Shown here piece by piece: positions 1,369 to 25,839 of a stretch of 25,839 nt of DNA. The stretch spans positions 1 to 25,839 of the IMG/VR virus record IMGVR_UViG_3300044639_000931; one strand, 5' to 3'. The DNA comes from a virus. Both the position numbers and the translations under genes were made by a program. The number at the start of each line of letters is the position of its first letter. Position 1 is the stretch's first letter. Below the pieces are notes generated by a model. That model worked only from the letters and a program-made list of their open reading frames with translations, was not told the DNA's origin and made no database searches.

Positions 1369-1881
1369 TTATATTCTTTCGTAATCTTTGTTAATATAAT
1401 CTATATAGTCCTCTTCAATCTCAATTCTTATTTTCTCTTTAGTTTTCTTCAATGAACGTAAAACAGTTGAAGGAGCTATATTAAATTTCTTTGCTATTTT
1501 TCTCATCGATAAACCTTTCACAAAGTAGTTATTCAATATTATAACGTCTGAATAGTGTGTTTTGTATTTAACGGCTTCAATCTTAGTGTTTATTTTTGTA
1601 AAAGAATCAAACTCGTTAATATCAAATTCATCATTTACAAGCTCTCTAACGTCATCAATTGATATTGTTGTAATCTTATTCTCTAATCTAAGTTTATCGA
1701 AGTAGATTGAACGTAAAGTTAACCAAATGTAAGCGGAGTTAATCTCTTTGTTTATCTTATTATCGTAAACTTTTAAATACATATCCTGGACAATATCTTC
1801 TGATGTTTCTCCAGCACCAAATGAACGAGCTATTGATACCCATTGCTTATGATTTTCTACTAGTTTGTTTAGTTGTTTCAA
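1369..1881 (-). CDS. Phage-encoded RNA polymerase sigma factor, ECF-like
   Basis: The 170-residue protein has the two-domain layout of an ECF-type sigma-70 factor. A region 2-like segment with SEDIVQDMYLKVYDN (about residues 27-41) and aromatic/basic YIWLTLRSIYFDKLR (51-65) would bind core polymerase and the -10 element. A linker follows, then a region 4 helix-turn-helix GLSMRKIAKKFNIAPSTVL (about 123-141), with basic residues after it, for -35 recognition. It overlaps the upstream 70-residue gene by ATGA and sits at the distal end of the early transcription direction, just before the terminase genes. That suits a switch to late transcription. Candidate target sites are the CGTTAA elements before three late genes; that link is inference. 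An alternative is a sigma-like DNA-binding activator. Confidence 0.8.
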   Translation of the reverse strand: MKQLNKLVENHKQWVSIARSFGAGETSEDIVQDMYLKVYDNKINKEINSAYIWLTLRSIYFDKLRLENKITTISIDDVRELVNDEFDINEFDSFTKINTKIEAVKYKTHYSDVIILNNYFVKGLSMRKIAKKFNIAPSTVLRSLKKTKEKIRIEIEEDYIDYINKDYERI

Positions 1882-7571: not shown

Positions 7572-8369
7572 TTATTTAACATTTAAACCACACATTTCTA
7601 AACAATTTTGACACTTACCTATAAATGCTTTTTTATTCATTTTGCTTATCAATTGTTTTGAATTCATAAATGACATTTTTTTTACGTTTATTATTCCATT
7701 TTTTACAAAATCATTATTTTTTGAAGGTCTAAATACTGTATCAATAGTTAATTCATTTTTAAATAGTTTTCTTTGAATTTGTGACATTATTTTTCCAGTT
7801 TCATTATCTTCATTAAAATCACAACTTACTATTCTTAAAACTGATTTGCAATAAGGTTTTAATCTATTATATTCATCTAATGAATTTTTAATTAACTGCT
7901 CATTATCTAAAGCAGAAATAGAAGTATTTATACAAATGTTATATTTTGATATTTGAATTAATTGTAAATCTGTTAATTTTTTCCAATGTCTTGTAATAAT
8001 TACAATTTGTTTTTTAGAACTAATATCAAATAAAGACAATTGACTACTTTCTCTTATTTGTTTTATAATATTAATTGTATGTTCCCAATTTTCCGAAGGA
8101 TCACCAGCACAACCAATACGAATAAAAGGCATATCAATTTTTTCTATTTGTTTAATTATACTTTGCTTATGTGCTTCGTTTTCAAAATATCGTTCTATTG
8201 ATTTACTAAAGTCTATGCCATATCTTTTAGCAGTTTTATAAGCATAGCAATCATTATAACAACCTTTTTCATTCTCTATTAAACCACTTTCACAACCTTT
8301 AATAGTATCTAAATCCCAAATACCCCTCTCATTTTTTGAAAGGGATATTATATTTTTATAGGTTCTCAT
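7572..8369 (-). CDS. Radical-SAM-like / Gp88-type Fe-S protein
   Basis: The 265-residue protein has Cys26 and a CYNDCYAYKTAKRYG segment (Cys37, Cys41), then TIM-barrel-like strands (PFIRIGCAGDPSENW at 81-94, KQIVIITRHWKKL, ICINTSISALD, KSVLRIVSCDF), and a C-terminal KCQNCLEMCG (Cys253, 256, 260). The strand pattern and GDPSEN resemble phage radical-SAM-like proteins of the Gp88 or Gp37/Gp68 groups, which start with a C-rich loop ending CYA. The canonical CX3CX2C is not complete: the third position is Tyr. The cluster may therefore use Cys26 or the C-terminal triad. It overlaps the methyltransferase gene by TAATG, so the two are co-translated and likely work together, possibly on DNA bases. 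The pathway is inference. Confidence 0.6.
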   Translation of the reverse strand: MRTYKNIISLSKNERGIWDLDTIKGCESGLIENEKGCYNDCYAYKTAKRYGIDFSKSIERYFENEAHKQSIIKQIEKIDMPFIRIGCAGDPSENWEHTINIIKQIRESSQLSLFDISSKKQIVIITRHWKKLTDLQLIQISKYNICINTSISALDNEQLIKNSLDEYNRLKPYCKSVLRIVSCDFNEDNETGKIMSQIQRKLFKNELTIDTVFRPSKNNDFVKNGIINVKKMSFMNSKQLISKMNKKAFIGKCQNCLEMCGLNVK

Positions 8370-9766
8370 TATAATCTACCAATATTTGGATATAAATCTT
8401 TTATTTTTGATGTATCGCCCTTATAAAAAACATAAATACGTTGTTCACATTTTGGATATTTACGACTATTTAATGTTTTCTTTGCAGTTGCTCGTCTTGT
8501 AAACTCACTTTCTAAATAAATAATTTTATTATAGATATGTAAACCTTGTTCTTTAAAAAACAGTTCGTGTTCTGCATCACTTCCATAATAACCTCCATCT
8601 TTATTACGACTATCTCCAGTCATTACTACAAAGAAAGTATTATCATTCATTACAGAAATAGCTCGTTTATAACCTTCAAAAAGCATATCTCTAAATTGTT
8701 CATATGTAGATAAAGAATTTAATTCGCCTTCAGGGGATTTACCATCATAATCTAAATAAGTTTCAACTTTATAATATGGAGGACACGAAAATATTAAATC
8801 ATAATTTTGTTTAGGAGTAAATTTAGCTGTATCTGATTTTAACCATTTAACATTATAAAAATCTTGACATAAAGCATTATTAGCGTCACATTGATTTTGT
8901 CTAATTTCAGAAGATAAATATTCATAACCACAACCACCAGCAACAAAACCCATTTGAACACCACCACCAAAAGGATTATAAACTCTAACACCATCTGTAG
9001 GCATAAACATTCTAACTATAATTTCACAAGCTGTAGGATCTAAAACAGAAGCATTACCATTTAAATCTTTTGAACTATCTGTTAAAATTTCACCATCAAC
9101 AACTTTTTGTTTAGATAAAACAATATTAGACATTCCTGCTTTTCCTTGCCAACATCCTTCACGACTTGCAAATTTTGGGTTTGGTATATTATATTTTAGA
9201 CCAGCATTTTCTAAATCAGTATTCCAAGCTCTTTTTACTTTTAACCATTCACCGCTTGTAGAGTTCCATAAATTTGTCATAGCCATATGACATAATCTTT
9301 TAACTCTTACCTGACTTTCTTCTCCATAATAAATATAAGAAAAATCACTTTTTTCTAAATTTACTTTAAAACCTAATGCTAAAAATACTTTTGGATTTTC
9401 TAAATCGTGTTTTTTAGAAACAGTCATTACCATATGATAACCGTAAGTATTTTGGTCTATAATTTTTTGAACCATCATACTATAAATCTTTTTATCCTTT
9501 TTTTCTGGATACATAGCAGACTGTAATAAACAGAATTCACCTACTTTATGATTTACTTCAAAAGTGAAAAAACCACTAAACTCATCATCTAATTTTAAAA
9601 TAATAGCTGAATGTTTTTGCATATTTTTACGAGCAGCACGATAAGCTATTTTATCAATTAATGCTAATTCTGCTACTTGTGTTTCATATCCTGAACCTAT
9701 TACAGATTCTACATAGATTAATTCAACTTTTTGTTGAAACATTGAAATTTGTTGATCTTTTTTCAT
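8369..9766 (-). CDS. DNA methyltransferase fused to an N-terminal GNAT-like domain
   Basis: The 465-residue protein has a C-terminal amino-methyltransferase domain. Motif I is YNPFGGGVQMGFVAGGCGYE with acidic SSEI after it (about 263-288), and motif IV is DLIFSCPPYY (about 323-332), the S/N/DPPY type that acts on N6-adenine or N4-cytosine. Residues about 30-150 (SAIILKLDDEFSGFFTFEV, GEFCLLQSAMYPE, KVFLALGFKV) look like a GNAT acyltransferase fold. GNAT-fold Mom of phage Mu makes a modified adenine, so this fusion could be a hypermodification enzyme. The middle section (160-240) is of unknown fold and may recognise DNA. It is driven by its own promoter at 9798-9828. The methyltransferase part is firm; the GNAT part and hypermodification are inference. 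Confidence 0.78.
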   Translation of the reverse strand: MKKDQQISMFQQKVELIYVESVIGSGYETQVAELALIDKIAYRAARKNMQKHSAIILKLDDEFSGFFTFEVNHKVGEFCLLQSAMYPEKKDKKIYSMMVQKIIDQNTYGYHMVMTVSKKHDLENPKVFLALGFKVNLEKSDFSYIYYGEESQVRVKRLCHMAMTNLWNSTSGEWLKVKRAWNTDLENAGLKYNIPNPKFASREGCWQGKAGMSNIVLSKQKVVDGEILTDSSKDLNGNASVLDPTACEIIVRMFMPTDGVRVYNPFGGGVQMGFVAGGCGYEYLSSEIRQNQCDANNALCQDFYNVKWLKSDTAKFTPKQNYDLIFSCPPYYKVETYLDYDGKSPEGELNSLSTYEQFRDMLFEGYKRAISVMNDNTFFVVMTGDSRNKDGGYYGSDAEHELFFKEQGLHIYNKIIYLESEFTRRATAKKTLNSRKYPKCEQRIYVFYKGDTSKIKDLYPNIGRL

Positions 9767-9797: not shown

Positions 9798-9828
9798 CAA
9801 ATATACTACTTTATTTTAAATAACCTAA
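9798..9828 (-). promoter_or_regulatory. Host-type promoter for the methyltransferase/radical-SAM-like pair
   Basis: On the minus strand a TTAG (9828-9825), one mismatch from TTTG, is followed after 19 bases by a perfect TATATTTG (9805-9798). The leader downstream is A-rich and ends TAAAAATT directly before the ATG at 9766, as in the other host-promoter leaders of this window. Confidence 0.7.
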
Positions 9829-11809: not shown

Positions 11810-12007
11810 TTAATCTTGAATTTGTATTGCTTTTTTATTTTCGTACTTCTCACTAATTACAGTAAATAAAGCAACTTCTTTTGTATCTCCTAATTCAACT
11901 AAAGAATTAAATAATTCTAATTCTGATTTGTTAAAGTTAAATAATACATTATTAAATTCTTTTTCTGTAATCTCTGATGCTAGTTTGTAAATTTCTTCTG
12001 CGTTCAT
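11810..12007 (-). CDS. Small early protein, first gene after a host-type promoter
   Basis: The 65-residue product (MNAEEIYKLASEITEKEFNN) is acidic and helical. It is the first gene downstream of the promoter at 12044-12073 and has the A-rich leader typical of this phage's early genes, ending AAGATT before the ATG. Small acidic proteins at the head of early operons often target host machinery, but nothing in the sequence shows this. Confidence 0.58.
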   Translation of the reverse strand: MNAEEIYKLASEITEKEFNNVLFNFNKSELELFNSLVELGDTKEVALFTVISEKYENKKAIQIQD

Positions 12008-12043: not shown

Positions 12044-12073
12044 CAAATATACATACTTTTTTTAAATATACAA
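12044..12073 (-). promoter_or_regulatory. Host-type promoter (TTG-N19-TATATTTG)
   Basis: On the minus strand TTG (12073-12071) and TATATTTG (12051-12044) are separated by exactly 19 bases, the same geometry as at 5800-5829. The promoter lies directly downstream of a terminator hairpin (12101-12135), so it starts a new early unit beginning with the gene at 12007. Confidence 0.8.
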
Positions 12074-14670: not shown

Positions 14671-14877
14671 TTAGTTGTTTAAAAATTCCTCAATTTTATA
14701 ATCTAATCTTTCAGCGATTAATTCATTTTTTTCTTCACCTTCTAAGTCACTCCATTGATCGAATAGTTGACTATCAGTTGTGAACACTTTAAATGTTTGA
14801 CCGTCTGTAAACTCAATGTTAATTGTCCATTGTCCGTAACCTTGTCTTTTAAATTCTGTGTTGTAAATCGTTTTCAT
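14671..14877 (-). CDS. First early gene, small protein of unknown function
   Basis: The 68-residue product (MKTIYNTEFKRQGYGQWTINI) is beta-rich in the first half and acidic-helical in the second (LEGEEKNELIAERLDYKIEEFL). It is the first gene after the promoter at 14909-14916 and so likely among the first phage proteins made. Similar small proteins with a GxGQWxIxI front are common in phages, with no function known to me. Confidence 0.62.
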   Translation of the reverse strand: MKTIYNTEFKRQGYGQWTINIEFTDGQTFKVFTTDSQLFDQWSDLEGEEKNELIAERLDYKIEEFLNN

Positions 14878-14908: not shown

Positions 14909-14939
14909 CAAATATACATATTCTTTTTTAATTATACAC
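14909..14939 (-). promoter_or_regulatory. Host-type early promoter (-7 TATATTTG)
   Basis: TATATTTG (14916-14909, minus strand) is a perfect TAnnTTTG element, preceded by AAAAAAGAATATG, which is almost the same as at the 12044 promoter. The -33 element is weak: a GTG/TGT where TTG is expected. The leader to the ATG at 14877 contains AACAATTACTAAAAACAAA. Confidence 0.7.
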
Positions 14940-17403: not shown

Positions 17404-18525
17404 TTAAGATGGTTTTGTTATCCAATATTCAACTCTAGTCGAGCTTACCCACTCAGCAAAGATAACATTCAATGTAGACGTTGTATAAGTAGCAGTTCCC
17501 ATTTTAACCCACCCAGCAGGGAAAGTTGGTGCAACCGTATGATTGTGGTATATTTTCTGAACTATTCCAATTTTCGCACTTGTTAAACTATCAGTAATAT
17601 TTGAACTTGAAGGACTTGCAACTGAATTGTAAACTTGTGGAACTATAAAAGAAATAACGCTCCCCGTTGTTGCTGTTGTATAAGGTTGGTATGTACTTAA
17701 ATCTTGGTCGCCTGTATTCGTTCCACTTGAAGTCCCTGAGAAAGTACCACTTTGTGTCGCTAAACTTCCCAAACCTAAATTAGTTCGTGCAGTTGTTGTA
17801 TTGGTTAAATCGCTTAAATTATTAGCTTTAAAAAGTAAAGTACTTAAGTCTTGATCTCCTGTGTTACTTCCTGAAAGTGTAGTTATTCCTAACTTTGTTT
17901 TTATAGTTGTAACCGTTTCATCACCTGTATTTGTTCCGCTTGTATTACTTAATACAGTACCTTCATCAGTTGTTATTAATCTTAAATCGTTTGTATCTCT
18001 AACTATTCTATAAGATACTTTAAAAGGATTTTGATTAATTAATGTACAAATAACATAATTGTCTACATTTATTTTATAATCTAATGAATCCTGAGCTTTA
18101 ATAAATTCACTTGAAAATGTAGGTATTGAACTATGATTGTGAATTAATAAAGATTGTGTATTAACATTTAATGTGCCAACTCCTGTTTGAACGGTTATGT
18201 TTCCTGTTAACCCTATAAATTTACCACTTATATCAGTATCAGCATGAATGAATTTTTTATCAAATCTTATCGCTGTGCTAGTGTTTTGAGAACTAGATAA
18301 ACTATCATATTCTTTTAATTTTTCAAAAACAGCGTCTTCGCTTGGACTTTTACTAGTAATTCCATCTGTAATAGTTTGCGAAACTACTGTTCCCAACAAT
18401 TGCGCCCCTGTAACACTCTTTAAATCGTAATCGGTGCCATTATTCACACCAACTATTAATAAATCTGTATTACCTAAAGCCGAACCTTTTGGAGTTAACT
18501 CCGATATTTTTTTAACTATTGCCAT
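17404..18525 (-). CDS. Tail fibre protein with ISELTP anchor and GTNTGD repeats
   Basis: The 373-residue protein starts MAIVKKISELTPKGSALGNTDLLIVG, an anchor shared with the next gene upstream. Residues 51-70 (TITDGITSKSPSEDAVFEKL) and 236-253 (NLSDLTNTTTARTNLGLG) are standard phage fibre linker phrases. SGTNTGD-type repeats occur at about 196, 218 and 267. The C-terminal 100 residues are beta-rich and may be the receptor end or a chaperone-like tip. It assembles on the baseplate or tail tip. The stop/start junction with the upstream gene is a one-base overlap. Confidence 0.82.
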   Translation of the reverse strand: MAIVKKISELTPKGSALGNTDLLIVGVNNGTDYDLKSVTGAQLLGTVVSQTITDGITSKSPSEDAVFEKLKEYDSLSSSQNTSTAIRFDKKFIHADTDISGKFIGLTGNITVQTGVGTLNVNTQSLLIHNHSSIPTFSSEFIKAQDSLDYKINVDNYVICTLINQNPFKVSYRIVRDTNDLRLITTDEGTVLSNTSGTNTGDETVTTIKTKLGITTLSGSNTGDQDLSTLLFKANNLSDLTNTTTARTNLGLGSLATQSGTFSGTSSGTNTGDQDLSTYQPYTTATTGSVISFIVPQVYNSVASPSSSNITDSLTSAKIGIVQKIYHNHTVAPTFPAGWVKMGTATYTTSTLNVIFAEWVSSTRVEYWITKPS

Positions 18526-18974
18526 TATTTAATTATTTTAATTTCGATTTGACTATCTAATAATAAACCATTTGTTAAAACCCCCAAACTACTGTAAGTA
18601 GAAACTCTAAACTTAGTTGTTGAAGTTCTAAAAATTGAGTAAAATCCAATAGTTCCACTACCTAAAGAAATTTGTAAAAATGTTTTATTTAAAGTTAGTT
18701 CAGCACTTGACAAAGTAGCTTCGTATATTCCTGTGCTAATATATGTCCAAGTAATTGTTGATGTTAATTCTGAATAACTATAATTAACCGTTGGCGCACT
18801 TGTAGATGTTTGAGTAATACTAGATAAATATCTTTTAAAAGGATTTACTTTTGCACCTGTAATACTTTTTGTTGAATAAATACCATCTGCTAATTGAGAT
18901 ATAACCATCAAGTCTGTGTCTTGAATAGTTACCGTAGATGCTGTAAGTTCCGATATTCTTTTTTCTAAAGCCAT
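18525..18974 (-). CDS. Short fibre protein with ISELT anchor
   Basis: The 149-residue protein begins MALEKRISELTASTVTIQDTDLMVIS and contains STKSITGAKV, matching the anchor of the next fibre gene (ISELTP, TDLLIV, LKSVTGAQL). The rest is a beta-rich, Ser/Thr-rich domain (SYSELTSTITWTYISTGIYE) of jelly-roll or immunoglobulin character. It is the first gene after the CGTTAA element at 18981-19007, so it probably starts its own late transcript. A virion fibre or head-decoration role fits; the exact place on the virion is unknown. Confidence 0.72.
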   Translation of the reverse strand: MALEKRISELTASTVTIQDTDLMVISQLADGIYSTKSITGAKVNPFKRYLSSITQTSTSAPTVNYSYSELTSTITWTYISTGIYEATLSSAELTLNKTFLQISLGSGTIGFYSIFRTSTTKFRVSTYSSLGVLTNGLLLDSQIEIKIIK

Positions 18975-18980
18975 TATTCT

Positions 18981-19007
18981 TTAACGTATTTATTAATTAT
19001 TTGTATT
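18981..19007 (-). promoter_or_regulatory. Candidate phage late promoter (AATACAAAT-N12-CGTTAA), copy 3
   Basis: On the minus strand AATACAAAT (19007-18999), 12 bases, CGTTAA (18986-18981), then 6 bases and the ATG at 18974. It is one of three near-identical elements. AATAC to CGTT spacing is 16, as in ECF sigma promoters. Confidence 0.6.
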
Positions 19008-19510
19008 TAATCTAGATACCAACTTGTTAGATCAGTTCTAAATTTTGGTTGAACGTCCTCGTCTATTGAAAGTAAATACTCAGGAAACAAAGTATAGTTA
19101 AATTGCATATACTTTAAAAATCTTTCAGCGTAGTTTTCTGCTATAACCCTATGCTTTTCAACTAAATAATCTACTTCGTTTTTACTAACTACTTCGCTAT
19201 TTTCCGCACTATGTTTGTACACACCTTTTGAAGTAATTGAATAGGCTATAAATGGTAGCATCTCAACGGCACTAAAGTGAATTAGCATAGGTTTTATATA
19301 AATATCAATTAAGTTGCTATAATCACTTGTTAACGTGTTATTTTGATAGTCTGTAAGTAACTTTGTTAATAGATTACTACCTAAATATTGCTGAATGTAA
19401 ATGTCCTGTGAAATTGATATGAAGTGCATCATCTTATCAGGATCGACTGAACCATTTAAGGCGGTAAACTTTACCAAATCTTTGTTTGAAATTAAAAGTA
19501 CTTTAGCCAT
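19007..19510 (-). CDS. DUF6712-like head-tail connector protein
   Basis: The 167-residue protein is mainly helical. It starts with AKVLLISNKDLVKFTALNGSVDPDKMMHFI and ISQDIYIQQYLGSNLLTKLL, which match the phage connector proteins of the DUF6712/gp6-like group in Bacteroidetes phages. The C-terminal part includes YAERFLKYMQFN and a FRTDLTSWYLD end. Its position directly after the portal gene supports a neck ring role: joining the portal to the tail. Family name is from phrase similarity, not a search. Confidence 0.68.
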   Translation of the reverse strand: MAKVLLISNKDLVKFTALNGSVDPDKMMHFISISQDIYIQQYLGSNLLTKLLTDYQNNTLTSDYSNLIDIYIKPMLIHFSAVEMLPFIAYSITSKGVYKHSAENSEVVSKNEVDYLVEKHRVIAENYAERFLKYMQFNYTLFPEYLLSIDEDVQPKFRTDLTSWYLD

Positions 19511-19512
19511 AA

Positions 19513-21339
19513 TTAATTAAATCTTTTATTTGTTGGTAAAAATCCATTATATGGCATATCTATAGGTTTTTGATAAACTCGTTTGTCGTTTGTTGGTGCA
19601 ATTTCACCCATTTTACGACTTTCAGCAGCTGTATATTTTTTAGCTAGTGGACTATTTACGTCTGATTTTTTCAAATAAGTTTCACGAACCCAGTAATGGC
19701 CACAAGACCCACCGCCTTTATATAACCAAATTGAATAGGTATCAGCTCCTTTTGGCCCCCAACCTGCATTTACAACTTGATTTTCCATATTAATAATATC
19801 TTCTTTACGGTATACTTTGTTTTGAGAAGTCATTTTATTACAAAAATCTCTAGTACTACTTTGATTTGTACCTGCATAACGATAACGAGTTTTAAAAATG
19901 TTTCCGTCTTGTTCACTTTTAGCGTTACCTCTTGCCGTTCCTGTACTTACTAACTTTGCTAAAAATGATTTTTTAGGTATTAAATTTTCAATTTCTAAGT
20001 CTAGTTCATTTTCCAAATCATAATCAACTTTTCTACTGTCAACTAGTAACCACTCATCGTTTATTTCTTCGCCTATACTTTCAAAATCAAATATTTCTTT
20101 ACTTAATTCTGTAGGAGGTTGTAATTCGCTACCACCTTGTTCGGCTTGTAAACCAACTAACCCACGTATTTCATTTGCAGTCATACTTTCAAGGACTTTA
20201 TTCGCTACTAATGGACTTAAACTATTAATACCATCAATTATACGTTTAGAGCCACCGCTAGCAAGTTCACCCGAACTATCTAAAGGTTGTAATGGTAAAA
20301 ATTCAAGGTTTAAACTGATATTATTAACTGCTAAAATCTTATCAAATGCTTCGATTATAACCTCTTGAAAAGGTCTAATTACCATATTATCAAATAATAT
20401 CGCTGAGTTCTTTAATTCGTCTGCGTTTGAACTAAAACCATTTGAAGTTGCTATTCCAAATAATAATGGACTTGTAACGTTATGACCTACTAAAATTTTA
20501 TTTCTACTTTCTTCACTTAAATACTGATATTGATCCGCAGCCTTTTGAAGTTGAATAGTATCAATAGTTGTCTTAGCTTCAGGATTATCGTTAAATGAAA
20601 TTATAACTTTCTTACCCGTTGACCCTGTTAACTTATTTGTAACGTCTTCACTAATTTGTTTTTTCTGCTCGGGGGTCGCTTGTCCATTATTAAAATTTAA
20701 AATACTGGTCGGGGCGAAAGAGTTACTAACCTCATTTATAAGGTATTCACTAACTTTCTCCTCTAAAACGCAATAGTCTAAAGCGCCTTGATAGTCAACG
20801 TAAGAATAGTACTTCATTCCTGCGCTGTAAGGTTGTATCATTAAAATTTCAATCTCACTTTTTGACGTTCCGAATGCGTCGTATCTAAGTGGTTTATATT
20901 CTCTAGTTTTTTGCCAATTATCAGAATAGTAATAACCTAAAATTTCACCGTCTTCATTACACTTTTCTGAACGAATTAAATTTACAGGCAAATGTAAGAA
21001 CTTAACAACTTCTCTTTTTTTGTTGTAATGAACTTGAATAGATGATTGACCCAACATCTTAACATCTGATATTATTCTTTTAATGTCGTCGGGACTACAA
21101 AGACTTAAAAAGTTAGCATAATCAGTAGGTTTCTTATTTGCGTCAAGTGCTGTAATTCCACGTCCGTAGATTAACTTACAAATGTTATTAATTACTGCGT
21201 TATTCGTTGCTGAATTTTGAAACCTATCAATCAAAAATTGATAATAATCATTCTTTGCTCCAAAATCTACCCAACCTTCGTTTCTTTGTTCAGTAATTAC
21301 GGGAGTTGTATACTGACTTAATTCTATTATTTTATTCAT
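19513..21339 (-). CDS. Portal protein with C-terminal minor-head-like extension
   Basis: The 608-residue protein has a portal core over about residues 1-430: WVDFGAKNDYYQFLIDRF, an ICKLIYGRGI strand, DVKMLGQSSIQVHYNKK, the clip/stem region with KKVIISFNDNPEAK, and LVGHNVTSPLLFGI. The portal forms the dodecameric DNA gate and binds TerL. The last 150 residues are a separate unit: RYRYAGTNQSSTRDFCNKM, YRKEDIINMENQ, WGPKGADTYSIWLYKGGGSC and HYWVRETY. Phrases like these are found in phage minor head proteins and as portal fusions in Bacteroidetes phages. It overlaps the neck gene upstream by 8 bases. The portal call is good; the extension's role is unknown. Confidence 0.8.
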   Translation of the reverse strand: MNKIIELSQYTTPVITEQRNEGWVDFGAKNDYYQFLIDRFQNSATNNAVINNICKLIYGRGITALDANKKPTDYANFLSLCSPDDIKRIISDVKMLGQSSIQVHYNKKREVVKFLHLPVNLIRSEKCNEDGEILGYYYSDNWQKTREYKPLRYDAFGTSKSEIEILMIQPYSAGMKYYSYVDYQGALDYCVLEEKVSEYLINEVSNSFAPTSILNFNNGQATPEQKKQISEDVTNKLTGSTGKKVIISFNDNPEAKTTIDTIQLQKAADQYQYLSEESRNKILVGHNVTSPLLFGIATSNGFSSNADELKNSAILFDNMVIRPFQEVIIEAFDKILAVNNISLNLEFLPLQPLDSSGELASGGSKRIIDGINSLSPLVANKVLESMTANEIRGLVGLQAEQGGSELQPPTELSKEIFDFESIGEEINDEWLLVDSRKVDYDLENELDLEIENLIPKKSFLAKLVSTGTARGNAKSEQDGNIFKTRYRYAGTNQSSTRDFCNKMTSQNKVYRKEDIINMENQVVNAGWGPKGADTYSIWLYKGGGSCGHYWVRETYLKKSDVNSPLAKKYTAAESRKMGEIAPTNDKRVYQKPIDMPYNGFLPTNKRFN

Positions 21340-21751
21340 AAATTATGAAATCGTTATCTGTTTGTTTTTGGTTATATACACCTTCATTAATTGAGTAAGG
21401 TAAACTTTGATCCGTACAAAATGCTTTACCTAAAAATCTAGTTTGTGTTACACTATCTTTGTAAACTCTAATAATATAAAAATGACCTTCAATTAATTCA
21501 AATTCCGCAGTAATTGTATGGTAATATCCGCCTTCGTAACTGCTTATAATTGGTGTTTCACTAGTTACATTAGTTTGTTCATCTGTTATTGATAGCTTGT
21601 TATATGTCGTTCCTGCTGAATTATTTACTAGTATGTTTACAATCTCATTGCTTTGCTCATCTCTAACAGGAAAAACGTCAAAATCTATGTCCTTATTTCT
21701 AGGAATAAAATTAAATGTTTGCTCCGTTGTTTCAGTCGTCAATATAATCAT
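21332..21751 (-). CDS. Late structural/neck protein, unknown family
   Basis: The 139-residue product is beta-rich with an N-terminal TTETTEQTFNFIPRNKDIDF and a strand-turn EGGYYHTITAEFELIEGHFYIIRVYKD typical of small immunoglobulin-like or neck proteins. It ends SINEGVYNQKQTDNDFIIYE. It is the first gene after a terminator (21786-21817) and a CGTTAA element (21758-21784), directly before the portal gene. A virion protein is likely on position; no family recognised. Confidence 0.6.
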   Translation of the reverse strand: MIILTTETTEQTFNFIPRNKDIDFDVFPVRDEQSNEIVNILVNNSAGTTYNKLSITDEQTNVTSETPIISSYEGGYYHTITAEFELIEGHFYIIRVYKDSVTQTRFLGKAFCTDQSLPYSINEGVYNQKQTDNDFIIYE

Positions 21752-21757
21752 ATCTAT

Positions 21758-21784
21758 TTAACGTATTATTTCAAAATTTGTATT
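21758..21784 (-). promoter_or_regulatory. Candidate phage late promoter (AATACAAAT-N12-CGTTAA), copy 2
   Basis: On the minus strand AATACAAAT (21784-21776), 12 bases, CGTTAA (21763-21758), 6 bases, ATG at 21751. The terminator T-tract ends only 1-2 bases upstream, so something must restart transcription here; this makes it the best supported of the three copies. Confidence 0.65.
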
Positions 21785-21785
21785 C

Positions 21786-21817
21786 AAAAAAAAAGGCCTA
21801 CATTTCTGCAAGCCTTT
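21786..21817 (-). terminator. Rho-independent terminator after the tail-tube-like gene
   Basis: Arms 21807-21817 and 21792-21802 form an 11-bp stem (two G-U pairs) closed by a GAAA tetraloop, followed by nine T on the minus strand. It lies 18 bases after the stop at 21836. Confidence 0.85.
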
Positions 21818-21835
21818 AATTTTATTAATTAATTA

Positions 21836-22384
21836 CTATCCTACAACTAATGTAGCCGAAGTAAATAAAGTCACCATTGCACTTTGAGTCGCTGCATTTA
21901 AAAAGTTTGCGTAACATTCTTCCATAGCTTCAAAAGTCAAAGAGTAACCATTGAATGAAGCCATATCACTTCCAGAGCTAAGAGACCCAGCAACTACGTC
22001 ACAACCTTGTCTTAAACCCATTAAGAAAAATTGACCTGCATTCGTCTCAACTACTATGTGAGGACGTCCATAAGCTAAAATTTTCACCACTTTAGACGTT
22101 GCTATATCTTGTTTTTTCAACTTAATATTTAACGTTTGTGTGAAAAAAGTAGTTCCGTTATTTCTGTCTGAATTAATCGTTTGTTCAAATGAATTTTCCG
22201 TAGATTTCAATTCAAACTTATACAAACTATCTACACCTATAACCGCTGTAATTAAGTCTGTATTTGTAACATCATAAGTTACATCACTTTTTTCAATTTG
22301 ATAATTAATAAAGAAAACATTCTTTAATCCTGATACCGAATCCTTGCATTGTTCAATTCGGCCACTTAAAATCGTACACGCCAT
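21836..22384 (-). CDS. Probable major tail (tube) protein
   Basis: The 182-residue protein starts MACTILSGRIEQCKDSVSGLKNVFFINY and later has ILAYGRPHIVVETNAGQFFL, LRQGCDVVAGSLSSGSDMAS and FNGYSLTFEAMEE. The last phrases match the tail-tube pattern (ligand strand, G-rich turn, DxxGYxLTFxxxE). It is isolated between two terminators, as fits a protein needed in hundreds of copies. Location directly after the capsid gene also fits a head decoration protein, which is the main alternative. Confidence 0.65.
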   Translation of the reverse strand: MACTILSGRIEQCKDSVSGLKNVFFINYQIEKSDVTYDVTNTDLITAVIGVDSLYKFELKSTENSFEQTINSDRNNGTTFFTQTLNIKLKKQDIATSKVVKILAYGRPHIVVETNAGQFFLMGLRQGCDVVAGSLSSGSDMASFNGYSLTFEAMEECYANFLNAATQSAMVTLFTSATLVVG

Positions 22385-22403
22385 TTTGTCTATATTTTTT
22401 TTA

Positions 22404-22439
22404 TGAAAAAAGGGGTAATGTATTTCTCACCACCCCTTT
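22404..22439 (-). terminator. Rho-independent terminator after the major capsid gene
   Basis: Arms 22428-22439 and 22409-22420 form a 12-bp stem (AAAGGGGT with two G-U pairs above) around a 7-base loop, followed by six T on the minus strand. It lies about 24 bases after the capsid stop and probably sets the capsid-to-tube ratio by partial read-through. Confidence 0.85.
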
Positions 22440-22462
22440 AGATTATTAATTTAATTTAATTC

Positions 22463-23479
22463 CTATCCTCCGTAAAGAACACCTTTAGTTGCTTGACCTA
22501 CGTGTGCTGCTAATGTATAGATTGAACGTACAAATTGAACATCTCCATCATTAGTTAATTTACCAACTTCAAATTTCAAAATATCATCTTGAAGATCCGT
22601 TAGCCACATTATACAAGACTTTCTTTGTGCGTATGCCATTAAATTGTTAGGAGTAGGTACGAAAATCAACTCAACACCATTGTAGAAACATTTTGCATCT
22701 GCAGCCATTGAATCAAACTCAAAGTTTACTTGTTGTGCAGCTCCTACAGAGTTGTTAGCAATACGTGCTAATTGTCTCCAAGCTCTTGGGCAATAGATAG
22801 CTGTTGGTGAAACTGTATCAGCTAAATTTTCAGCAGGAATTGAAGCGTAAATAAGTCCAACTTGTGCAGCGATATTAGAACTAGTAACCGTAGTTCCTGT
22901 AACTTTAATGTAACCACCTAATGCAGAATTGTCATAAAGAACTCTAGAAAATACTCCATCAAGCAATCTTGGTGAAAGTGCCGCCACCGCTGTTTGTGTA
23001 GCTGCTGTCACAGAACCTTGAGAAGCTCCAGGAGTTAAAGCAGCGATTGCAGTTTGTGTTGCCGATGTAATACCACCCCAAAATAAAGACTCTGCATCTT
23101 GAGAAATATTAGGTGCGTATTGTGCTAATACTGTACTTGCAAATTCTGAACTTTCAATGTTGAATGCTCCAGGATTCATTGAACGACCAAAACGACCTGC
23201 TCTTAATGCTTCCTGTAAAAATGTTTGTTTGTACTCTAATTTAGTAGGAGTAACTATTCTGTCATTGATTGACATAGAACCAGAACTAGATAAAGCCGAA
23301 CCTGTGTACAATTGAGCCGTTACATCAACACCTGCTTCAGTGATAATTGTTCCTGCTTTAATATCAGTTGCGAAAGTTACATACCCTTCTGATACGGTTT
23401 TGTTTGCAAATAATACCTCTTCTAAAATTGGTTCGACAGCTTTTCCTCTGATGTCGATTTGTGTTCCTGTAATTGCCAT
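22463..23479 (-). CDS. Major capsid protein
   Basis: The 338-residue protein has the size and strand pattern of a HK97-fold capsid protein of the kind seen in Bacteroidetes phages: an N-terminal helix (EPILEEVLFANKTVSEGYVTF), a spine helix LEYKQTFLQEALRAGRFG, CPRAWRQLARIANN, and a terminal strand-rich P-domain ending FVRSIYTLAAHVGQATKGVLYGG. Residues 141-150 and 161-170 are a 20-residue-period repeat (TQTAIAALTP, TQTAVAALSP). It follows a protease and a scaffold-like gene and is bounded by a strong terminator. High confidence from context and length, although the fold was not searched. Confidence 0.82.
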   Translation of the reverse strand: MAITGTQIDIRGKAVEPILEEVLFANKTVSEGYVTFATDIKAGTIITEAGVDVTAQLYTGSALSSSGSMSINDRIVTPTKLEYKQTFLQEALRAGRFGRSMNPGAFNIESSEFASTVLAQYAPNISQDAESLFWGGITSATQTAIAALTPGASQGSVTAATQTAVAALSPRLLDGVFSRVLYDNSALGGYIKVTGTTVTSSNIAAQVGLIYASIPAENLADTVSPTAIYCPRAWRQLARIANNSVGAAQQVNFEFDSMAADAKCFYNGVELIFVPTPNNLMAYAQRKSCIMWLTDLQDDILKFEVGKLTNDGDVQFVRSIYTLAAHVGQATKGVLYGG

Positions 23480-23482
23480 TGT

Positions 23483-23650
23483 TTATTTGTTTTTATTTAA
23501 TTTATAATGTTTCAAATCATTTATTAACCACTCTATTTGTTCGTTGGTTAATTTTCCTTTGCAATATGTTTTAATTGTTTTGCTTCCAATTGCTGTTAAA
23601 AAGTGTTCGTAATTTACACCCACCTCAAATGGATTAACAAACTTATCCAT
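23483..23650 (-). CDS. Small capsid-neighbour protein (55 residues)
   Basis: A 55-codon frame occupies the gap between scaffold-like and capsid genes. It starts MDKFVNPFEVGVNYEHFLTAI, has a helical middle (KLTNEQIEWLINDLKHY) and a basic end. It overlaps the scaffold-like gene by 8 bases and stops 4 bases before the capsid ATG. The exact fit into the gap between two virion genes supports a real gene, perhaps a scaffold or capsid-assembly helper. No family recognised. Confidence 0.62.
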   Translation of the reverse strand: MDKFVNPFEVGVNYEHFLTAIGSKTIKTYCKGKLTNEQIEWLINDLKHYKLNKNK

Positions 23651-24221
23651 TCATTCTACTTTTAATATCTCTAAAACGTTCTAATGGAGTTAATGGAGTG
23701 TTGTTTTTAGTTTTGTTTTCAGGGTTAAATTTAATTGCTTTAACTTCTGTAAGTTCAACTACTTCCTCAACTACATTTTCAACTACTTCTTTAACCTTAG
23801 AAAGTTCTAAAATCTTAGCTTCTAATTCTTCAATCTTAGCATTTAATTTAGAAAAATGTTGTTCCTCAGTTGTTGTCTTAACAATCTTTTTTGCAGTTGT
23901 TGTTTGTGGTGCAACTTTCTCAGCTTCTACGGGAACTTCAGTCGGTTCTACTTCTACTTCCTCTTCATTTGGTAATTCAATAGATGAAATAATTCCTTCT
24001 ACTTCTACTTCTAAAATACGACCATCTGCTAGTTCATACTCACCAATTGGTAAAGGCACGGGGTCTGCATTTTCTACAACGATAAATACCGCTTCACCAA
24101 CTTCAAACATATCCGCCTGTATAGTTGTCATTCCATCTGCTAAGGGCATGTCCTCTAATTTTGTTTCCATTCCTAAAAAGGTTTTAAGTGTTTTAATTGC
24201 TTTTTTTACTTCTTTATTCAT
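23643..24221 (-). CDS. Scaffold-like protein
   Basis: The 192-residue protein has a beta-rich front (LEDMPLADGMTTIQADMFEVG, FIVVENADPVPLPIGEYELADGRI), an acidic linker (PNEEEVEVEPTEVPVEAEK), and a long coiled coil (KLNAKIEELEAKILELSKVKEVVENV) ending in PLTPLERFRDIKSRMNG. This domain order is typical for capsid scaffolds in Bacteroidetes phages, which are removed by the prohead protease encoded two genes upstream. It is the first gene after the CGTTAA element at 24228-24253. Function inferred from layout and position. Confidence 0.72.
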   Translation of the reverse strand: MNKEVKKAIKTLKTFLGMETKLEDMPLADGMTTIQADMFEVGEAVFIVVENADPVPLPIGEYELADGRILEVEVEGIISSIELPNEEEVEVEPTEVPVEAEKVAPQTTTAKKIVKTTTEEQHFSKLNAKIEELEAKILELSKVKEVVENVVEEVVELTEVKAIKFNPENKTKNNTPLTPLERFRDIKSRMNG

Positions 24222-24227
24222 AACTAA

Positions 24228-24253
24228 TTAACGATTTAATTTATATTTGTATT
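24228..24253 (-). promoter_or_regulatory. Candidate phage late promoter (AATACAAAT-N11-CGTTAA), copy 1
   Basis: On the minus strand AATACAAAT (24253-24245), 11 bases, CGTTAA (24233-24228), then 6 bases and the ATG at 24221 of the scaffold-like gene. The 9-mer and 6-mer are identical to those of the other two copies; the spacer is one base shorter. Confidence 0.6.
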
Positions 24254-24282: not shown

Positions 24283-24882
24283 TTAATTTATCTTTTCTAT
24301 TGTTAATATAACCGAAGGTACTGCGGGGTAATTTGGCGAAGTGCTAGCAACTTCATAAATTAACTCAATTGCATCGTTCTGAACTATCATTAATTGAGCA
24401 TACGAATTAGCCTCTAATTTTATATAGAAATTCCAAGATGCGACTAAGAAATCTGCATTCGCTTGCATTGTTACGTGTGTCGAAGTTGCGGGTACATCTA
24501 CACCATTTTTTCTTAACCATATAATAGCCTGTCTAGAAACCCCACCACTCAACCGATTTAATTGAGCCGAAAATTGGATATTATAAACACCTTCAATGTC
24601 AACTGTTATTTTGCTATTATCTACAATTGAAACTCCATAAGTTGCATCCGTATCTGTATTGTTGTATGTTATAGCTGTTATAGTGTTTATTGTTGGGTAT
24701 TGTGTTTGAGTTGAATAGAAAGAACCATATCTAGGTATACGTACAAGTAAATTAATAGAATCAATTAAATCAGAATATAGAATACGTTGTAATACTTGAG
24801 TATTATTATCATAATAAATGTAGTCACTTTCTTCAATTGTAGTGACTTCTTTATAGCGCCTATTATAATTTAAATCAATCAT
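24283..24882 (-). CDS. Virion protein with TNF/C1q-like jelly-roll domain
   Basis: Residues 50-199 form a compact beta sandwich with phrases common to phage fibre and decoration domains: YGSFYSTQTQYPTINTITAI, SKITVDIEGVYNIQFSAQLN, AIIWLRKNGVDVPATST, ASWNFYIKLEANSYAQLM and a final ILTIEKIN. The 50-residue front (RRYKEVTTIEESDYIYYDN) is the anchor. Such proteins trimerise and decorate heads or act as head fibres; the place between protease and scaffold genes favours a head fibre. It overlaps the protease gene by ATGA. Confidence 0.72.
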   Translation of the reverse strand: MIDLNYNRRYKEVTTIEESDYIYYDNNTQVLQRILYSDLIDSINLLVRIPRYGSFYSTQTQYPTINTITAITYNNTDTDATYGVSIVDNSKITVDIEGVYNIQFSAQLNRLSGGVSRQAIIWLRKNGVDVPATSTHVTMQANADFLVASWNFYIKLEANSYAQLMIVQNDAIELIYEVASTSPNYPAVPSVILTIEKIN

Positions 24883-25469
24883 AATTTATCTAACAAAGAT
24901 TTTATTTCTTCAATCAATATTTCTTCTTCTGTAAGTTCACTCATTTTTAATTGATCCAATCCGTCAAACATTCCCTCAATTGAAAACCCATTAAATTTTC
25001 CTAACTTAATACCGTTATAAACGTCTTCATTATAGATTTTCATCTTAACAACCCATGCACCTTTTACAGCATTTAAACCATATATGTTTGATTTATCATT
25101 CTTAGTGTCTTCAACAATCCAACTTTCAATAAGACTAACTCCGTTTACTGGCTTTTCGTGGTCTATAGTAACGTTATTTGCACGTAGATTTTTCATATAA
25201 AGCTCTTGAACCTTCTCAATTGTAGCTTCTGAAAACTCAATATTGAACTCTACATTGTCTTTACGTCTTAATATCTTCTTATTTGGGACTAAAGCAAGGC
25301 CTACAACCTCTCTTTTTTCATCGTTAACAACCTTTAATTCAACCTCTAAAGCATTTAACATAATGAAATCTTCCATTATAGCGGGTTCGTTTACCAAACT
25401 TATTGCGAATACCCCCTCTTTTAGCTCATCTTTAATCGTTAATTCGATTGTTTGTAGTTCTTTTTTCAT
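24879..25469 (-). CDS. XkdF-like prohead serine protease
   Basis: The 196-residue protein has the phrases of the XkdF/prohead-protease group: REVVGLALVPNKKILRR, an EFSEATIEKVQELYMKN helix, VTIDHEKPVNGVSLIESWIV with His104, KGAWVVKMKIYNEDVYNGI, and KFNGFSIEGMF with Ser163. His and Ser at these places are the expected catalytic pair. The enzyme would trim capsid and scaffold during head maturation. It sits upstream of the scaffold and capsid genes, separated by the jelly-roll gene. The acidic C-terminus is family-typical. Confidence 0.8.
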   Translation of the reverse strand: MKKELQTIELTIKDELKEGVFAISLVNEPAIMEDFIMLNALEVELKVVNDEKREVVGLALVPNKKILRRKDNVEFNIEFSEATIEKVQELYMKNLRANNVTIDHEKPVNGVSLIESWIVEDTKNDKSNIYGLNAVKGAWVVKMKIYNEDVYNGIKLGKFNGFSIEGMFDGLDQLKMSELTEEEILIEEIKSLLDKL

Positions 25470-25490
25470 ATTTATATAACTAAATTTCGT

Positions 25491-25839
25491 TTATAATGTT
25501 GCATTTCTTAACCTATTACGGTCTAATGATTGTTGAGTAGACATTTCACCACTCACGACATAAGCTTGAATAGGCGCTTGTTTTAATTGTTGTAATTGAT
25601 TTGTGCCGTTATTACCTACTATATTAAAGTTTGGAGTTATAACGTTACCTTGCATTGCATTTGTGCCACCACCACCACCACCACCACTTGGAGGAGTTCC
25701 GCCACCGCCACTAGCATCGAATTTTGTAGATGCAATTTTCTTAACATTTAATAACCCAGCACTTAAAGCCAAACCTGCTGCAGCAATACCTAATGCAGGT
25801 CCAACTACAGGAATAGCCGACAAAGAAGAATAAGCACCT
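25491..25839 (-). CDS. Probable tail tape-measure protein, C-terminal end (truncated by window edge)
   Basis: The frame is open to the right edge, giving about 115 residues. It reads AYSSLSAIPVVGPALGIAAA, then a hydrophobic helix with LNVKKIASTKF, a Gly/Pro-rich stretch, and a C-terminal QAYVVSGEMSTQQSLDRNRL. The PVVGPALGIAAAG helix followed by a K-I-x-x-T-K-F phrase and an AYVVSG tail is the usual end of tape-measure proteins in Bacteroidetes phages, which set tail length. The Gly-run (about 39-53) is a flexible linker. A different large virion protein is possible. The gene order, tape measure before capsid genes, is unusual. Confidence 0.6.
   Translation of the reverse strand, partial: GAYSSLSAIPVVGPALGIAAAGLALSAGLLNVKKIASTKFDASGGGGTPPSGGGGGGGTNAMQGNVITPNFNIVGNNGTNQLQQLKQAPIQAYVVSGEMSTQQSLDRNRLRNATL

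Follow-up and report, generated by a model that had tools for sequence, protein, structure and literature searches.

In the Kuravirus phages phiEco32 and SU10, a phage ECF sigma factor (gp36 and CDS32, respectively) works with the host RNA polymerase at a few middle/late promoters ahead of structural genes, the reported element being a single motif, tAATGTATAtA, located 6-8 nt ahead of the transcription start, while the early genes depend on host-type promoters (PMC4281155, PMC4331800). In Bacteroidota, ECF-type promoters with a CGT -10 box are known from Flavobacterium psychrophilum SM6, where they serve host genes (type IX secretion and others) (PMC9723704). Searching the open literature for phage ECF sigma factors, leaderless late genes and phage P12024S, we found no paper on such late gene control in phages of this phylum. 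Here we analyzed a virus record of 25,839 bases from a phage with Bacteroidota-type hosts (the window, meaning the whole stretch of DNA examined), which has ~30% G+C, bears most of its likely genes on the minus strand and is possibly a fragment. It contains three two-box elements directly ahead of late genes, and we consider it likely that these are late promoters for the host RNA polymerase carrying a phage-encoded ECF-type sigma factor, from which leaderless mRNAs would be made.

Two-box elements ahead of three late genes

On the minus strand of the window, AATACAAAT and CGTTAA occur together three times, separated by 11 nt (24253-24228) or 12 nt (21784-21758 and 19007-18981), and each CGTTAA is followed by exactly 6 nt and then an ATG (gene starts at 24221, 21751 and 18974). 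The elements and the features around them are:

25478..25502, minus strand: GCAAC-N16-AGTT, a possible fourth site of degenerate form, with 8 nt between AGTT and the ATG that starts head protease gene 24879-25469
24228..24253, minus strand: candidate late promoter 1, AATAC-N15-CGTT, with 8 nt between CGTT and the start (ATG) of scaffold-like gene 23643-24221
23643..24221, minus strand: late gene after promoter 1, scaffold-like, matching phrog_24921 positions 220-318
21792..21817, minus strand: intrinsic-terminator-like hairpin directly upstream of promoter 2, with a T run after it
21758..21784, minus strand: candidate late promoter 2, AATAC-N16-CGTT, 8 nt before the ATG of gene 21332-21751
21332..21751, minus strand: late gene after promoter 2, adjoining the portal gene 19513-21339
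18981..19007, minus strand: candidate late promoter 3, AATAC-N16-CGTT, with 8 nt between CGTT and the start (ATG) of fibre-like gene 18525-18974
18525..18974, minus strand: late gene after promoter 3, fibre-like, with an N-terminus resembling that of 17404-18525

These are the positions at which a first-pass annotation of the sequence had placed the elements, and the pattern was matched 0 times when the window was shuffled 100 times with dinucleotides preserved. The AATAC-N16-CGTT geometry given there holds for two copies, whereas the copy at 24253 has a spacer of 15 nt. That annotation had also put the middle copy right behind a terminator, and a terminator-like hairpin stem is indeed found at 21817-21792, with promoter 2 beginning 8 nt past it; such hairpins number 5 in the region compared to 3.7 expected by chance. 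Promoter 3 abuts the end of gene 19007-19510.

Regarding the roles that had been assigned to the genes, 'fibre' and 'neck' were only weakly borne out by family searches. Gene 18525-18974 had no family match in these searches, and we regard it as a putative fibre gene. The N-terminal part of phrog_24921 matches the protease 24879-25469. The portal protein is encoded by 19513-21339 (PHROG portal, 3e-103), with the Nonlabens phages P12024S/L as its nearest cultured relatives (33% identity), and 22463-23479 is the probable capsid gene, judged from its place after the protease and scaffold genes. The possible fourth site ahead of the protease gene is weak on its own; in relatives, GAAAC-N16-CGTT stands 8 nt ahead of the same gene.

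The boxes alone hold little information and are nonspecific, being found in coding and shuffled DNA as well. With a loose two-box matrix, we obtained 9 sites scoring at least 11 in the window, of which 6 were classed as coding, and the mean best score was 15.5 in shuffled DNA compared to 16.2 for the real sites. The matrix scan was dropped as sole evidence because of these similar scores in shuffled DNA. Thus, concerning the frequency in coding sequence that the first-pass annotation had raised, the loose matrix does match coding sequence, whereas the exact string at the exact distance from a start codon, recurring across phages, is far beyond chance. The matrix also gave AATACAAAACACACTATTCAGACGTT at 1546 (minus), inside the sigma gene, a score equal to that of the real late sites; this match encodes the residues YKTHYSDV, has no start codon after it and was rejected as a late promoter.

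Conservation and clade variants in related phages

A scan with gene 22463-23479 yielded 80 related virus loci, and the same kind of element occurs upstream of orthologous late genes. We examined 880 distinct regions upstream of open reading frames, taken from 81 capsid-related sequences: CGTT was present exactly 8 nt before the ATG 56 times and at any other distance 0-9 times; the genes were not preselected, and the set includes close relatives, so the 56 cases are not all independent. Furthermore, AATACAAAT-N-CGTT has 14 distinct contexts across the fetched loci, 13 of which sit 8-9 nt before an ATG. Promoter 1 is found exactly in L004, L005 and L009, and GAAAC or AATAC variants occupy the same position in at least ten relatives. 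Promoter 2 is kept ahead of the orthologous gene in nine phage records, P12024S among them.

For 44 non-redundant sites, all chosen as having [CT]GTT at 8 nt, the sequence logo displays CGTT at -12 to -9 and, at about -33 to -25, an AC-containing box rich in A. T occupies position -1 in 86% of these sites (81% compared to 47% at other starts in a separate comparison), and 76 of 80 start codons after the motif are ATG. The core conserved among the sites, A[AT][AT]AC-N15-17-CGTT, is of the ECF -35/-10 type: the AC-containing A-rich box, CGTT and the spacing of 15-17 nt correspond to the AAC-like -35 box, the CGT -10 box and the ~16 nt spacing of ECF-type promoters. While the shared 9-mer and 6-mer of the first-pass annotation are exact within the window, the invariant part in relatives comprises only AC of the -35 box and GTT or CGTT of the -10 box; AATACAAAT and the final AA in CGTTAA characterize the window clade.

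The sites mark the same late families in distant phages, namely protease/scaffold, the small gene before the portal gene and a gene of 198-235 aa, which in near relatives is the first gene after the terminase, following the sigma and terminase region. Gain or loss of a site is seen before the last gene, where it is present in L086/L087 and absent from L084/L085. The boxes differ between clades as follows:

Window clade: AATAC/GAAAC...CGTT
G009/G010: GAAAC...TGTT
G012/G015: (G/A)TTAC...CGTT
G018/G026: ATTAC/AAAAC...CGTT
G017/G019: -10 box AGTC
G031: -10 box AGTT; one site TGTT, 7 nt away
L096, L098, L100 and L101 (found by sigma alone): one AGTT site each, 8 nt from the ATG
G025: GTCAC...AGTT ahead of the three corresponding genes, the distance to the ATG being 11 nt

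Using sites hand-picked from the clade site listings, we found a similarity between sites of different genes of 0.805 within a genome compared to 0.583 between genomes, and 0 of 5000 permutations reached the within-genome value. Sites that are alike within a phage and differ between phages are what a co-evolving trans-acting factor predicts, and this concerted change points to such a factor differing between phages. Taken alone, it does not tell a phage factor from a host factor. A chance origin, or an AT-rich bias upstream of genes, might be suspected from the low information content of the boxes, but is extremely improbable given the empty shuffles, the CGTT peak at 8 nt, the contexts near ATG and the permutation result.

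The phage sigma gene

The window encodes a candidate for this factor:

1369..1881, minus strand: putative ECF-type sigma factor of 170 aa with sigma2 and sigma4 and a conserved EDIVQDMYLK, recognized by TIGR02937 and fold matches

The gene starts with TTG in the window and with ATG in relatives. Its product matches NCBIfam TIGR02937 (sigma70-ECF) with 43.8 bits (cut-off 42.9, E 2e-11), and Sigma70_ECF below that profile's cut-off. All 23 aligned sigma members match TIGR02937 (E up to 0.01), just 6 of the 23 match Pfam Sigma70_r2, and 15 match phrog_31712, a family listed with unknown function that is probably a sigma family. An AlphaFold model of the window protein (pLDDT 77.7) has helices for sigma2 (11-69) and sigma4 (88-155); the relative placing of the two domains is uncertain (pTM 0.39). 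Its best structural matches in Foldseek are sigma factors, ECF types being prominent; the top row, 9n9q_C, is a sigma factor in an RNA-guided transcription complex, on which no open paper was found. The protein has only sigma2 and sigma4, and its length falls within the ~150-200 aa expected of ECF sigma factors. Based on profile and model matches, we assign it to the ECF sigma superfamily, with a predicted role in directing the polymerase, in agreement with the ECF-like sigma factor noted at first pass. The window-clade and L091-L101 sigmas share a conserved C-terminal DYINKDYE tail (window 1369-1400, minus), which other clades lack and for which model confidence is low (pLDDT <50).

A sigma homologue is present in 25 of 40 related records, including most near-complete ones; the records without one are mostly short fragments. 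None was detectable in G006, G008, G015, G016 and G020 (17.8-25.8 kb), which may be fragments; G006, G015 and G016 have sites nonetheless. An argument of the form 'no sigma, no motif' was dropped when a profile with larger membership revealed diverged homologues in G025 and G030; in G030, no matching motif was found despite its diverged sigma-like protein. The 62,650-base record G022 (L184-L187) encodes two sigma homologues that differ from each other, both on the minus strand (19950-20474 and 45989-46396), and is perhaps two phages joined or one large phage.

The co-occurrence of the sigma gene bears on whether the sites are promoters at all. A place just ahead of the start codon would also suit a signal at the RNA level, and the sites could be bound by some other phage factor acting in late activation, antitermination or translation. 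We rate this as very unlikely: only a few genes have sites, one of them right behind a terminator, and two boxes at a sigma-like spacing of 15-17 nt occur together with a sigma gene. The main rival for the factor itself is an ECF sigma of the host, with the phage sigma serving other genes. Flavobacteria do possess several ECF sigma factors, and one of their promoter classes is ECF-type, having CGT as its -10 box (PMC9723704), and different hosts could likewise give rise to concerted variation. Against this, the phages carry an ECF sigma gene of their own near the terminase genes, and the sites vary in a concerted, phage-specific way, so that we judge a host ECF sigma to be a quite unlikely reader of the sites.

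Proposed late transcription and comparison with known systems

For transcription by the phage sigma factor, we propose the following order. Early genes would first be transcribed from sigma-A promoters of the host (TAnnTTTG) and have leaders of ~25-30 nt. The sequence TATATTTG agrees with the Bacteroidota sigma-A -7 element TAnnTTTG and occurs 8 times in the window compared to 4.3 expected, which is a mild enrichment only. Three copies are located ahead of genes:

9798..9805, minus strand: host-type -7 box, 31 nt before the ATG at 9766, ahead of a putative leadered early gene, in contrast to the late sites
12044..12051, minus strand: host-type -7 box, 36 nt before the ATG at 12007
14909..14916, minus strand: host-type -7 box, 31 nt before the ATG at 14877

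In F. johnsoniae, sigma-A often starts transcription 4-5 nt after TAnnTTTG (PMC6847099), so the early leaders of the phage would measure about 26-32 nt. The box at 9798..9805 precedes a DNA-methylase-like gene (8369-9766, minus; Pfam N6_N4_Mtase below its cut-off), which is followed by an unmatched gene of 265 aa (the pair spans 7572-9766, minus). Two host-type readings of the late elements were rejected. The reverse complement of one copy has TATATTTG (24242-24249) and those of the other two do not, which we ascribe to chance; as to a sigma-70 -10 box within TTAATAT, this stretch is unconserved between clades and would start transcription inside the gene.

The early operon would then produce the phage sigma, encoded downstream of the early genes, which would switch on the head, tail and fibre operons, with its region 4 reading the -35 box (AATAC, GAAAC or (G/A)TTAC) and its region 2 the -10 box (CGTT; TGTT, AGTT or AGTC in other clades). 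The fixed position in relatives, the sigma gene and the concerted changes thus lend support to the first-pass proposal of sigma-specific, near-leaderless late promoters, from which we infer the sigma-promoter contact, its timing and the start sites.

Given the 8 nt between the end of CGTT and the ATG, transcription is predicted to start at the A of the ATG or within about 2 nt of it, and the late mRNAs are probably leaderless. When +1 is set at this A, the boxes fall at -33 to -28 and -12 to -9, as expected of ECF boxes. The chief alternative to leaderless mRNAs is a short leader of 3-8 nt made from the same phage-sigma promoters. The starts are predicted ones, and in G025 a distance of 11 nt separates the -10-like AGTT from the ATG; leaderlessness in the strict sense may therefore fail in some clades. 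On the other hand, fixation to the single nucleotide at 8 nt, T at -1 and near-exclusive use of ATG agree with a start at the A and make a short leader rather unlikely; with a start further downstream, the start codon would be lost.

Leaderless mRNAs make up only 5.5% in F. psychrophilum (PMC9723704), and ~3.7% of 5' UTRs are shorter than 10 nt in B. thetaiotaomicron (PMC7366714); therefore, their use by the late phage genes would be unusual for the phylum. With less confidence, we lean towards a wider reading, in which a whole group of Bacteroidota phages expresses its virion genes from strictly leaderless mRNAs via a fast-evolving phage ECF sigma, one element fixing both promoter choice and ribosome start; the phages would present a series, formed in nature, of sigma factors co-evolved with their promoters. 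If so, the virion genes expressed late would bypass leader-based initiation in bacteria without Shine-Dalgarno leaders, and the diverged pairs (CGTT, TGTT, AGTT and AGTC with varied -35 boxes) would lend themselves to studying the evolution of sigma specificity.

The system is directly testable in P12024S and P12024L, which are isolated phages with a named host (Persicivirga sp. IMCC12024 in the case of P12024S). In P12024S, whose record has no promoters annotated, seven AAAAC-N16/17-CGTT sites stand 8 nt (in one case 7 nt) before the ATGs of gp01, gp05, gp08, gp35, gp41, gp44 and gp45. Its sigma-like gp33, annotated only as containing Sigma-70 region 2, is encoded shortly upstream of the large terminase gene, and the P12024L homologue is 98.7% identical to it. 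P12024S therefore shares the arrangement of sites and sigma-like gene with the window, although the sigma proteins are only ~23% identical and its sites are more numerous.

Among described systems, the F. psychrophilum SM6 promoters resemble the late elements in their -10 box, and for late genes driven by a phage ECF sigma the known precedent is gp36 of phiEco32. The likeness to phiEco32 is one of arrangement: the genes of the window fit a scheme in which a phage sigma would serve the structural genes and host promoters the early genes. The elements themselves differ, since the window phage has, instead of the single motif of phiEco32 and SU10, a bipartite -35/-10 element held 8 nt from the start codon.
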